From Halobacteriovorax sp. (GTDB lineage: Bacteria > Bdellovibrionota > Bacteriovoracia > Bacteriovoracales > Bacteriovoracaceae), in the NCBI GenBank assembly GCA_024686135.1, contig JAIBDQ010000004.1:1-48960 (forward strand): 48,960 nucleotides of DNA. Direction: 5' to 3'. The position numbers and the translations under genes were made by a program. The notes beneath the pieces were generated by a model, which had not been told where the DNA came from, made no database searches, and saw nothing but the letters and a program-made list of their open reading frames with translations. The first letter of the stretch is position 1, and each line of letters opens with the position of its first letter. This document shows positions 15,303 through 18,679 of this stretch, one piece after another.

Positions 15303-15323
15303 ATAGTTCATAAAATGAACTAT
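15303..15323. promoter_or_regulatory. Inverted repeat, candidate activator (enhancer) site
   Basis: ATAGTTCAT (15303-15311) and ATGAACTAT (15315-15323) are perfect 9-bp arms around AAA. The centre is about 105 bp upstream of the start expected from the sigma-54 promoter at 15391, the usual distance for an enhancer-binding protein site. No T tract follows, so it does not look like a terminator. Confidence 0.5.
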
Positions 15324-15390
15324 CCAGGTCCTATTTGACCATTTACTCCAGTATTTAAGGTCTTTTTGCCACCAAATCCCTTAACTAAAG

Positions 15391-15407
15391 TTGGCACGTC
15401 CTTCGCA
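15391..15407 (+). promoter_or_regulatory. Sigma-54 (RpoN) type promoter
   Basis: TTGGCACGTCCTTCGCA matches the -24/-12 consensus TGGCACG-N4-TTGC with a single mismatch (TCGC for TTGC). The invariant GG (15393-15394) and GC (15405-15406) are exactly 10 bp apart. The predicted start is near 15418, giving a leader of about 67 nt before the lipoprotein gene. Confidence 0.75.
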
Positions 15408-15421
15408 ATATTAAATAGTGA

Positions 15422-15446
15422 GAGATTACCAAGGATGGGAAATCTC
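15422..15446 (+). other. Stem-loop in the leader of the lipoprotein mRNA
   Basis: GAGATT (15422-15427) can pair with AATCTC (15441-15446), with further C-G pairing inside (ACC/GGA). It lies at the predicted 5' end of the sigma-54 transcript and could protect the mRNA from decay. Confidence 0.4.
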
Positions 15447-15484
15447 AGAAGCAAAAAGCGATCTTCACTTACAAGGAGGTAAGA

Positions 15485-15691
15485 ATGAACGCCACACTAC
15501 CACATAAGCTACTTCTTTTACTTACCTTCAGTCTGCTTGCTCTAGTGAGCTCAGGCTGTGCAAACCAAGGTACGGAAGAAAATCAAACAGCGAAGTATCC
15601 AGATGAGACAGACTACAAGGCCAATAAAAAGGCCAAGTATAAGCCATTTGTTTCCAGTGACAATTACCACGCTTTTTTAGACGCAAAATAA
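15485..15691 (+). CDS. Very small lipoprotein under sigma-54 control
   Basis: The precursor has 68 residues. A signal peptide of 24 residues ends in the lipobox VSSGC, with lipidated Cys25. The mature part is only about 44 residues, hydrophilic and rich in Lys, Tyr, Asp and Asn. The ribosome-binding site AAGGAGGT is close to ideal at 5-7 nt spacing. The gene stands alone between a sigma-54 promoter and a strong terminator, so it forms its own regulated unit with a transcript of about 350 nt. I do not recognise the family; abundant short lipoproteins of this shape can tether or pack the envelope, but that is inference. Confidence 0.85.
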   Translation: MNATLPHKLLLLLTFSLLALVSSGCANQGTEENQTAKYPDETDYKANKKAKYKPFVSSDNYHAFLDAK

Positions 15692-15700
15692 TTTTTCAAT

Positions 15701-15741
15701 GTCCCTGCGCTGAGAAGTGCAGGACTCTCTCCCTCAGAGAG
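15701..15741 (+). other. Two tandem hairpins in the 3' untranslated region
   Basis: GTCC-TGC (15701-15708, one bulged C) pairs with GCAGGAC (15719-15725). CTCTCT (15725-15730) pairs with AGAGAG (15736-15741); the two stems share one base. With the terminator that follows, they make a run of three stem-loops over 70 nt. Confidence 0.5.
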
Positions 15742-15773
15742 GCCCAGGTAGTCCGCAGCTGCCTGGGCTTTTT
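15742..15773 (+). terminator. Strong intrinsic terminator after the small lipoprotein gene
   Basis: GCCCAGGTAG (15742-15751) pairs with CTGCCTGGGC (15759-15768) through ten pairs including one G-T, with a 7-nt loop and five T residues at 15769-15773. Confidence 0.9.
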
Positions 15774-15788
15774 GTATGCATTAATTAT

Positions 15789-16445
15789 TTATTTGAAGGC
15801 AAAAAGAATTGAACCATTCTCAGTTCTTTCAACAAGTGAATTAATTTCGTTCATGGCAACGGCCGGACAGCCCCAAGATCTTCCTTGAACGGATCGCCCA
15901 GGAGCTACATAGTCAGCACCATGAACAACAATATAGCGAGACCTAGCATTTGAATTACTCTTCTCTTTCCCATCAAGGCGCATGCTAAGACCATTTCCCC
16001 CCCAGTATCTCTCTGCCGTTAAATAAATACCAAGACTACTTTTCTTGGAATTATGTACGTTAGAGAAATACTTAGCAAAGCCTGTATGTCCAGGGTCAGT
16101 ACCTTTTCCATGGGCCACATGTAAAACTTCGTGAGTTTGATTAACTAAATCTAAAAGAAATAATCTGGCTTTTGAACTATGTTGAGAAAAGTCTACTAAA
16201 GTCATGTAATCTTTATTCTTAACATGAGCATCATTCTCTTGGAGATAAAGCATGGCCTTTTTGAGGCCTTCAGCTGGCACCCCTTGTTCAACAAAGGTTT
16301 CATAAAGATCTAAATCAATAAGCTCCACACCTTCAATATCATTGAACAGCTTAGGAACTGTTGGGTCAGCTGTTCCGTACTCAGGTTCACTACCGCAACC
16401 AAAACTTAGAAATGCCACCATTAAAAATATAAGTGCCTTTTTCAT
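15789..16445 (-). CDS. Lipoprotein with murein L,D-transpeptidase-like (YkuD_2-type) domain
   Basis: This 218-residue lipoprotein has lipobox LSFGC (Cys17). The body matches the murein L,D-transpeptidase catalytic family: SSLGIYLTAERYWGGNGLSMRLDG (about 136-159), the His motif YIVVHGADYV (about 169-178) and the catalytic GRSWGCPAV (about 186-194), with Cys in SWGCP. It would act in the periplasm on peptidoglycan cross-links or as an anchor for lipoproteins. AGAGGT precedes the ATG. It is monocistronic and convergent with the small sigma-54 lipoprotein gene. Confidence 0.85.
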   Translation of the reverse strand: MKKALIFLMVAFLSFGCGSEPEYGTADPTVPKLFNDIEGVELIDLDLYETFVEQGVPAEGLKKAMLYLQENDAHVKNKDYMTLVDFSQHSSKARLFLLDLVNQTHEVLHVAHGKGTDPGHTGFAKYFSNVHNSKKSSLGIYLTAERYWGGNGLSMRLDGKEKSNSNARSRYIVVHGADYVAPGRSVQGRSWGCPAVAMNEINSLVERTENGSILFAFK

Positions 16446-17539: not shown

Positions 17540-18679
17540 TTATTTTCCTATTGTGTATCTAAATCTGATACCAACCATAGGGTCTGACTCCCTACCATCT
17601 CTTTCTATCTGAGAGGCGTAAGCATCGACTGACCATCTGTCATGGTTGTATCTAGCACCTGCTTCAAAAGTCTTTGCTGTATTATCGACCACTGTCGTCT
17701 CACCATAGCTTCCATATACTGAATATCTAGAGCTCGGAATTCTTGCTTCTGCTTCGGCTCTCCATAGGTGAGTAAGTCCAGTTTCACCATCACTATGACC
17801 AATACCAAGCCCTGCTTCTCCTTTGAAACTTAAGACATCATTTACATCAGCTCTTAATGAACAAATTCCAGCAGTGTAAATTCCCCCTCTAATATTTCCG
17901 AGCTCTCCACCACAAGCTACATTTTCATTTAACTTGTACTGCTTTGATCCTCTTAGTTCTGTAAACCCATCTCCACCAACATACTGGTCAAGTCTTAAGT
18001 GACTTAGAGTTTTCTCATCTTCATGTTCTACAACAGTAGAGATAACCATTGAAACATCTAGACTGTTATCTTTCTGAGGAGGTGCCTGAGTAGTTTCATT
18101 ATCATCTTCTTTATCATCGTCATCGTTTCCATCGTCATCATCGTTTCCACCGTCATCACCGTTTCCACCGTCATCACCGTTTCCACCGTCATCACCGTTT
18201 CCACCGTCATCACCGTTTCCACCGTCATCACCGTTTCCACCGTTGTTTCCGTTGTTTCCGTTGTTCCCGTTGTTTCCGTTGTTCCCGTTGTTTCCGTTGT
18301 TTCCGTTGTTCCCGTTATTTCCGTTGTTCCCGTTATCACCAGAGCCTGAACTTCCACCACCGGCGTTTCCATTATCTGAATCATTACCTTGGTTGCCAGG
18401 ACCCGTGTTGCCTACACCATTTCCGCTATTACCATTACCAACGTTTGAGTTTCCATTACTTTGATTATCATTATTAGATTCATTTGAATGGTCTCCATGA
18501 CCAAAGCCATTGCCTTGATGGTTCTCATGACCTTGACCATTTGAATGCCCTTCTTGATGGCCAACACCATTAGAGGATCCTTGTGAATTATTAGGATTAG
18601 TTTTTCCATTCCCGGCCAATGCCACGGAAGTAAATAATAAGATACATAATAGGCTTAAAAAGCTGGCTCTCTTCTTCAT
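17540..18679 (-). CDS. Exported Gly/Asn/Asp tandem-repeat protein with C-terminal beta domain
   Basis: The protein has 379 residues. The signal peptide is MKKRASFLSLLCILLFTSVALA. Residues about 23-115 are Gly/Asn/His/Ser-rich. A run of GNN units is then followed by GDDGGN units and an Asp-rich stretch (about 115-200). The C-terminal 165 residues have beta-barrel-like strands (TLSHLRLDQYVGG, GIRFRYTIGK). The Asp-rich repeats could bind calcium. A surface-exposed flexible stalk on an outer-membrane domain is inferred. GAGAGGAGAG lies before the ATG. It is monocistronic, with its terminator at 17505-17530. Confidence 0.75.
   Translation of the reverse strand: MKKRASFLSLLCILLFTSVALAGNGKTNPNNSQGSSNGVGHQEGHSNGQGHENHQGNGFGHGDHSNESNNDNQSNGNSNVGNGNSGNGVGNTGPGNQGNDSDNGNAGGGSSGSGDNGNNGNNGNNGNNGNNGNNGNNGNNGNNGNNGGNGDDGGNGDDGGNGDDGGNGDDGGNGDDGGNDDDDGNDDDDKEDDNETTQAPPQKDNSLDVSMVISTVVEHEDEKTLSHLRLDQYVGGDGFTELRGSKQYKLNENVACGGELGNIRGGIYTAGICSLRADVNDVLSFKGEAGLGIGHSDGETGLTHLWRAEAEARIPSSRYSVYGSYGETTVVDNTAKTFEAGARYNHDRWSVDAYASQIERDGRESDPMVGIRFRYTIGK
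18124..18231. repeat. 18-bp tandem repeat coding for GDDGGN units
   Basis: The unit CGTTTCCACCGTCATCAC (plus strand) occurs in five perfect copies at 18142-18231. A sixth, slightly diverged copy is at 18124-18141. All copies are in frame in the minus-strand repeat-protein gene, so copy-number change would lengthen or shorten the protein without a frameshift. Confidence 0.9.
18241..18330. repeat. 9-bp tandem repeat coding for GNN units
   Basis: Ten units of the form CGTTGTTTC or CGTTGTTCC (minor T/C and A variants) lie directly beside the 18-bp repeats and encode Gly-Asn-Asn triplets. The third-position variation suggests the array is older than the nearly perfect 18-bp array. Confidence 0.9.

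Follow-up and report, generated by a model that had tools for sequence, protein, structure and literature searches.

Phased dyads, a sigma-54 promoter and predicted CsrA sites accompany a tiny lipoprotein gene in dozens of Bdellovibrio-like species

Introduction

How is the gene for a lipoprotein of only 68 residues controlled, and is that control its own or shared with other genes? The question is raised by a locus of Halobacteriovorax sp. (assembly GCA_024686135.1, contig JAIBDQ010000004.1), within an analysed stretch of 48,960 nucleotides that we call the window. A preliminary description of this DNA had proposed a self-contained module in which a -24/-12 box, a perfect 9-3-9 inverted repeat, a leader stem-loop, the Shine–Dalgarno sequence AAGGAGG, a 68-codon open reading frame (ORF) with a lipobox and a terminator are combined. 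All of these elements are indeed found in their places; three dyads upstream of the promoter, GGA-loop sites in the leader and two hairpins ahead of the terminator had gone unnoticed (Table 1). As far as can be read from the DNA, the tiny lipoprotein, the dyads, the sigma-54 promoter and the predicted CsrA sites form a layout common to dozens of Bdellovibrio-like species, and this layout appears to persist across the loci of Bacteriovoracaceae and Halobacteriovorax while the lipoprotein sequence itself has drifted until it is nearly unrecognisable. A search of the open-access literature returned no account of such a regulon or of CsrA targets in the Bdellovibrio-like group, and the main text of a 2025 survey of sigma-54 regulons does not mention Bdellovibrio.

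Table 1. Features at and around the lipoprotein gene, in window coordinates
Feature	Position	Strand	Basis and remarks
Cyclic-nucleotide-binding (CNB) domain protein, 155 aa	14802..15269	+	PF00027, E 6.7e-17; directly upstream in every case; orthologues in family
Dyad 3, CCGGTAACAAGATGCGCCTAA	15282..15302	.	Centre 98.5 bp upstream of TTGG (about -126); matrix score 6.4
Inverted repeat 9-3-9, ATAGTTCAT-N3-ATGAACTAT	15303..15323	.	Centre 77.5 bp from TTGG
Dyad 2, CCAGGTCCTATTTGACCATTT	15324..15344	.	Centre 56.5 bp upstream of TTGG (about -84); matrix score 3.7
Dyad 1, TTAAGGTCTTTTTGCCACCAA	15355..15375	.	Centre 25.5 bp upstream of TTGG (about -53); matrix score 10.5
Sigma-54 -24/-12 promoter, TTGGCACGTCCTTCGCAA	15391..15408	+	Pattern match and conservation in relatives
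Predicted start region, AGTGAG	15417..15422	+	Inferred; AGTRAG about 12 nt past the -12 C in many relatives
Leader hairpin 1, loop AAGGAU, CsrA-type site	15422..15446	+	RNAfold; stem interrupted in window species
Shine–Dalgarno hairpin CUUAC-AAGGAG-GUAAG, second CsrA-type site	15468..15483	+	Fold and congener conservation
Lipoprotein, 68 aa, lipobox LVSSGC	15485..15691	+	Read from sequence
Two 3' UTR hairpins (GNRA-type tetraloop; CUCUCUCCCUCAGAGAG)	15704..15741	+	Paired changes in first hairpin (window against G002)
Intrinsic terminator, hairpin and U run	15742..15773	+	Hairpin 15742-15768, then TTTTT
L,D-transpeptidase-like gene (YkuD_2)	15789..16445	-	PF13645, E 1.3e-45; convergent; syntenic in congeners

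The locus and its promoter

The gene just upstream, rightly described as encoding a cyclic-nucleotide-binding protein, was our synteny anchor for collecting loci. Such an anchor was needed because sequence search alone gave only two convincing homologues of the lipoprotein, both in congeners. Loci were gathered from relatives and from a named GTDB collection (Halobacteriovorax, Bacteriovoracaceae and Halobacteriovoraceae, nearly all of them MAGs), and the non-redundant set consists of 45 loci with a short ORF directly 3' of the CNB gene. Gene order around the lipoprotein is identical in both congeners, G001 and G002, and the convergent YkuD_2 gene is probably not a member of the lipoprotein unit. 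About 10 of the 51 loci with a CNB stop codon show no recognisable unit, which we count against the two-step sigma-54/CsrA model developed below.

The -24/-12 element reads TTGGCACG-N4-TCGCAA, with GG and GC separated by 10 bp and a single mismatch to the YTGGCAC-N5-TTGCW context (TCGCA for TTGCA); in its core it is an ordinary promoter of the sigma-54 class. Five matches to the strict pattern TTGGCAY-N5-TnGCA occur in the 3.29-Mb assembly, as against one for the reversed control. Conservation of the -24/-12 bases in relatives, on which the preliminary description had staked its proposal, holds well: a 22-bp box, TTGGCACGnCCTTCGCAATATT, is identical in both congeners while its flanks have diverged, and 36 of the 45 non-redundant loci carry a GG-N10-GC box at the same place downstream of the CNB gene. 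Of the remainder, seven keep the -24 half with GA or GT at -12, again counted against the two-step model, and two (L085, L086) have neither half. Sigma-54 control of the tiny lipoprotein gene, as originally proposed, is thus strongly supported by conservation of the box, and the transcript would begin at about 15418. Searches for RpoN succeeded in both congeners and in 55 of the 59 relatives' genomes searched; it was not found in the window's own assembly, G000, which is 82% complete, and we count this against the two-step model.

At L041/L081, L051/L101, L100, L103, L104, L116 and L118 the -12 GC has become GT or GA and the -24 half TTGGCA[CT]G is kept in place; these may be promoter variants or cases of decay.

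The lipoprotein and its 3' UTR

The window protein opens with a signal peptide and a lipobox cysteine (...LLALVSSGC-ANQG), and has no Pfam or NCBIfam match above the curated cut-offs. The ORFs downstream of the CNB gene in other loci encode 43-72 residues, and most of them have a lipobox. Those from outside the genus are 8-25% identical to the window protein, and a [KR]xPxxD motif is common to many of them. One clade (L074, L075, L078, L082) has lost the lipobox cysteine and kept the promoter, the Shine–Dalgarno context and a KxPKDD motif.

The 3' UTR has an unusually stable fold (z -5.1), and the first of its two hairpins differs between the window and G002 by four pairs that are changed on both sides. 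Separately, a CU-rich tract (CUCUCUC) lies past the stop codon in a subset of the loci, among them the window (15704-15741) and, for example, L035, L036, L038, L041, L045 and L117. Pairing of this tract with a leader GAGAG was ruled out, as L036 and L038 carry the tract without the partner.

Phased 21-bp dyads upstream of the promoter

Where might the activator of such a promoter bind? The preliminary description had nominated the 9-3-9 inverted repeat. No other perfect 9-bp repeat in the window has its arms 3 bp apart (with spacers of 0-10, the window holds eight perfect 9-bp repeats, as against 3.4 in mononucleotide shuffles). The nominated repeat is in register with the promoter, but its sequence is not dyad-like and it is not conserved: the outer 7+7 bp are kept in G001 and the repeat is absent from G002, and on this ground we reject it as the enhancer. 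The further copies that were to be sought near other promoters did not materialise either, since the genome holds only one.

What is conserved is a different element. A palindromic expectation-maximisation search of the interval from the CNB stop codon to the -24 box found a recurring 21-bp dyad, TtGGtGtCAaatTGaCaCCaA, with log-likelihoods of 128-191 at six widths from 15 to 21, compared with 27-57 in dinucleotide shuffles. Three copies lie in the window, at positions relative to the start (Table 1) that assume initiation near 15418; dyad 1 has the highest matrix score in the window, dyad 2 scores higher (6.4) in G001, and dyad 3 has 20 bases identical in both congeners.

The distances between site centres and TTGG cluster at 14.5, 25.5, 36, 46, 56.5, 67, 78, 88 and 98.5 bp; in other words, the dyads keep helical register with the promoter. 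On a grid of periods from 8 to 14 bp the best is 10.5 (R 0.79, n=70 sites), and the 23 distinct distances taken alone also give R 0.79. Because the half-site spacing of the dyad can by itself give rise to secondary sites in a locus, a fairer measure takes only the best site from each locus, and it gives R=0.83 (n=36 loci). When the matrix was trained on half of the loci and applied to the other half, R was 0.84 and 0.65, compared with 0.04-0.40 in shuffled sequence. Nominal p values for the register are too small because the loci share descent; the register nevertheless recurs from one to about thirteen turns. The sites span about -41 to about -180. By its placement and phasing, the 21-bp dyad would be the upstream activator site of this sigma-54 promoter.

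Which protein would read it? Several GAFTGA AAA+ activators are encoded, none is linked to the locus, and none could be assigned to the dyad. A search for an activator gene with the dyad at its own promoter produced a weak lead only, GGTC-N7-GACC upstream of L211 and its orthologues, in which the spacing differs. The dyad core resembles the NorR site, GTCA-N3-TGAC, and this too is only a lead. The CNB protein was rejected as the dyad-binding factor, as a domain search of the protein found no HTH domain.

The closest dyads, centred 14.5 bp from TTGG at about -41, are unusually close for an enhancer, and we count them against a sigma-54 activator (bEBP) as the bound protein. Might a different kind of protein, such as a repressor or a CRP-like regulator, instead read the dyad and modulate the promoter, with the bEBP bound elsewhere or acting from solution? 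Sites abutting the polymerase footprint would suit such a factor, as would a locus with no linked bEBP, and it is contact activators, as at CRP promoters, that more usually depend strictly on the face of the helix. Against this, the same register extends to some 150 bp upstream, a sigma-54 promoter requires an AAA+ activator and no further conserved upstream motif emerged that might serve it, and the adjoining CNB protein is no help for the reason just given. We regard this alternative as unlikely, and continue with a bEBP at the dyads.

The leader as a probable CsrA target

The preliminary description correctly noted a leader stem-loop and did not recognise it as CsrA-type, and so missed a probable second, translational layer of control. 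CsrA recognises the consensus RUACARGGAUGU, with ACA and GGA present in all selected ligands and an ANGGAN hexaloop, and in the glgC leader a hairpin carries one CsrA site and a second covers the Shine–Dalgarno sequence (PMC7652899). The motifs of the present leader match both this consensus and the glgC arrangement (PMC7652899): the Shine–Dalgarno sequence reads ACAAGGAG, overlapped by ACA-NGGA (ACAAGGAGG), and a hairpin upstream of it holds GGA in the hexaloop AAGGAU. In the congeners the loop AAGGAT and the Shine–Dalgarno region CTTACAAGGAGGTAA are kept along with the promoter box, and adjacent bases vary; the loop is also retained in many other relatives. The fold of the window leader is modest (z -2.2), and RNAfold pairs an interrupted stem in hairpin 1 that an ungapped hairpin test misses, a point that we count against the CsrA model. 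An Rfam search of the region gave nothing above noise.

Family-wide, the pattern is much sharper. ACA[AGC]GGAG stands at the Shine–Dalgarno sequence of 23/33 target genes and of 1/60 other genes with a GGAG Shine–Dalgarno sequence in the same loci (Fisher p 5e-13). GGA-loop hairpins of at least 6 bp occur in 14 of 33 leaders (the number left after thinning similar loci), compared with 1.1 expected and at most five in 300 shuffles. The stems change while GGA in the loop stays constant, as in UUCCC-AAGGAU-GGGAA (L072), AAAACC-AAGGAU-GGUUUU (L039), GAGGCC-AAGGAU-GGCCUC (L041), AUAACC-AUGGAG-GGUUAU (L037) and GGAUUC-GAGGAA-GAAUCC (L048). Among eight hairpins selected for having hexaloops, stem covariation is 0.833, with 94% of cells pairing, a value matched by none of 500 shuffles and by no slid register. 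On the other side of the ledger, a strong GGA hairpin is missing from about half of the leaders, the hairpin is retained in one clade (L097, L105, L107, L111, L114, L115) but its loop reads AAGA instead of GGA, and G034 has the leader in a genome in which CsrA was not found, all counted against the CsrA model. L047, L094 and L095 have a short leader with the Shine–Dalgarno site only.

Judged by these motifs, the leader is probably a CsrA target. G000 encodes one CsrA (PF02599, E 1.4e-25), whose gene lies between a flagellin-domain (FlgL-like) gene and FliW; this neighbourhood only hints at a link to motility.

Other candidate members of a regulon

That the module is self-contained, as had been proposed, is not supported: elsewhere in the family other genes show the same dyad, promoter and type of leader. 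Since other sigma-54 genes share the dyads and the GGA-loop leaders, the lipoprotein module is probably one member of a family-wide regulon. Candidates were picked from the few strict -24/-12 matches in the genus, and three more genes qualify, each with dyads and a GGA-loop leader. The first encodes a 52-aa protein (L141, G000:C229:25047; L147, G001:C8:44401; L166, G002:C7:332712) and has a sigma-54 promoter, dyads that fall near the register at 57.5-58.5 and 110.5 bp and miss it at 72.5 bp, and a sponge-like leader, about 150 nt long, that contains several GGA-loop hairpins. The second, a DksA/TraR-like zinc-finger gene (PF01258; L153, G001:C8:44920; homologue L192, G041:C26:47877), stands behind a sigma-54 box and likewise has several GGA-loop hairpins in its leader. 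The third encodes a 59-aa secreted peptide (L138, G000:C47:1771; L165, G001), located upstream of an ABC-transporter ATPase gene, with a sigma-54 box, a dyad in register at 56.5 bp and GGA in a Shine–Dalgarno loop. Strict matches that did not qualify are L139, inside a gene, and L140/L159, before a lipoprotein-like gene with no dyad. A -24/-12 box followed 15-45 bases on by AAGGAT occurs at 21 places in 76 family genomes and nowhere in the reversed control; the target locus accounts for seven of the 21, and several of the others have no dyad.

Two further places, L180 (G056:C29:41701) and L181 (G011:C2:61509), combine a sigma-54 box, a dyad and AAGGAU motifs with no clear gene, followed by a CCCUCUCUCCC stretch, and are possibly CsrA-binding small RNAs. 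At L188, L189, L194, L195 and L198 a -24/-12-like box precedes a short conserved block, GUGUGUGUG ... AAAAAGGAUUUUU ... UGUCUCU ... terminator, which is transcript-like, has no dyad, occurs in several genera and is possibly an unrelated small RNA.

Proposed mechanism

We consider it reasonably probable that the lipoprotein gene is a doubly gated single-gene unit, in which a sigma-54 activator at the phased dyads is combined with translational repression by CsrA. A bEBP would bind the 21-bp dyads in register with the -24/-12 promoter and open the sigma-54 polymerase; the transcript would carry two CsrA sites, the hairpin loop and the Shine–Dalgarno sequence; and a CsrA dimer would bridge both and block ribosomes, as on E. 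coli glgC. The lipoprotein would be produced once the activator has switched on and CsrA is bound by FliW or soaked up by other RNAs. What the genomes show directly is the box, the dyads with their register, the loop and Shine–Dalgarno motifs, the covariation across the family, CsrA and FliW in G000 and RpoN in the relatives. From these we infer binding, the start site, the repressive direction of CsrA control and relief by FliW. The sigma-54/dyad step has strong sequence support, and the motif and covariation support for the CsrA step is strong family-wide and weaker for hairpin 1 of the window leader.

Is the protein the point of this unit, or is the RNA? One tentative extension, to which we give a small but appreciable chance, is that a sigma-54 burst titrates CsrA: the induced mRNAs of the family regulon would themselves be CsrA ligands, one activator would read the phased dyads, and fast-evolving ORFs would ride on conserved RNA. 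Similarly, the transcript of the lipoprotein gene might itself act mainly as a sponge of the flaA-mRNA or CsrB type, with the short ORF secondary. The regulatory anatomy does outlive the protein, whose low identity outside the genus and loss of the lipobox cysteine in one clade fit this reading; the leaders of the 52-aa and DksA/TraR-like genes hold several GGA hairpins, L180 and L181 resemble non-coding transcripts of the same build, and an mRNA that titrates CsrA has precedent (PMC4894983). Yet the window leader has two clear sites only, one of them over the Shine–Dalgarno sequence, a better fit to a repressed target; [KR]xPxxD and the lipobox are kept in many ORFs; and some clades retain the protein and the promoter without GGA in hairpin 1. 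A primarily RNA-level role is, on this evidence, improbable, and the doubly gated gene remains our preferred reading. Finally, the hairpin might do no more than serve stability or the start site, and ACAAGGAG might simply be a strong Shine–Dalgarno sequence, with no role for CsrA. This would accord with a hairpin that has no GGA in one clade, but is unlikely given a GGA that is constant on changing stems, GGA-loop hairpins in excess and a Shine–Dalgarno context sharply unlike that of other genes of the same loci.

Comparison with known systems and significance

The leader agrees with the CsrA sequence features tested, and the mRNA would work like glgC or flaA. It shares with E. coli glgC a hairpin-loop site upstream of a site over the Shine–Dalgarno sequence, the ANGGAN hexaloop and the ACA-RGGA motif (PMC7652899), and differs in having a sigma-54 promoter, a tiny lipoprotein rather than a metabolic enzyme, CsrA sites that are predicted and an interrupted stem. 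In Campylobacter jejuni, the FliW-CsrA pair controls flagellin mRNA, and CsrA targets include RpoN-dependent transcripts (PMC4894983). The flagellar context of CsrA and FliW and the leaders with two GGA loops are alike in the two systems (PMC4894983), whereas the targets found here are tiny proteins and a DksA/TraR-like protein instead of flagellar structural genes, and flaA itself is FliA-dependent.

Enhancers of the NtrC/NorR type resemble the dyads in being palindromic and often multiple upstream of a -24/-12 promoter; they differ from the strict register seen here over about 13 turns and from sites as near as about -41, and at glnALG helical facing has been described as less relevant (PMC7408454). 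There is also a likeness to regulatory RNAs that depend on sigma-54, in that the sigma-54-induced RNA here may titrate a global RNA-binding protein. CrcZ, for example, is sigma-54-dependent and titrates Hfq/Crc; unlike the lipoprotein transcript, which carries an ORF, it is non-coding. What is unusual is the phasing of dyads so close to the promoter and the way in which sigma-54 and predicted CsrA control come together, family-wide, on fast-evolving tiny proteins.

With the dyad known, the activator and the remaining regulon can be sought with precision. Its register, kept at sites between about -41 and about -180, offers a natural experiment on the facing of enhancers at sigma-54 promoters. 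The coupling of sigma-54 and CsrA on mRNAs for tiny proteins, together with the FliW-CsrA pair, suggests a switch that is possibly tied to motility or to a phase of the life cycle.

Elsewhere in the window, the minus strand at 17540-18679 encodes a 379-aa protein with a signal-peptide-like start, a long NG/GD-rich repeat and then a conserved-looking C-terminal part.
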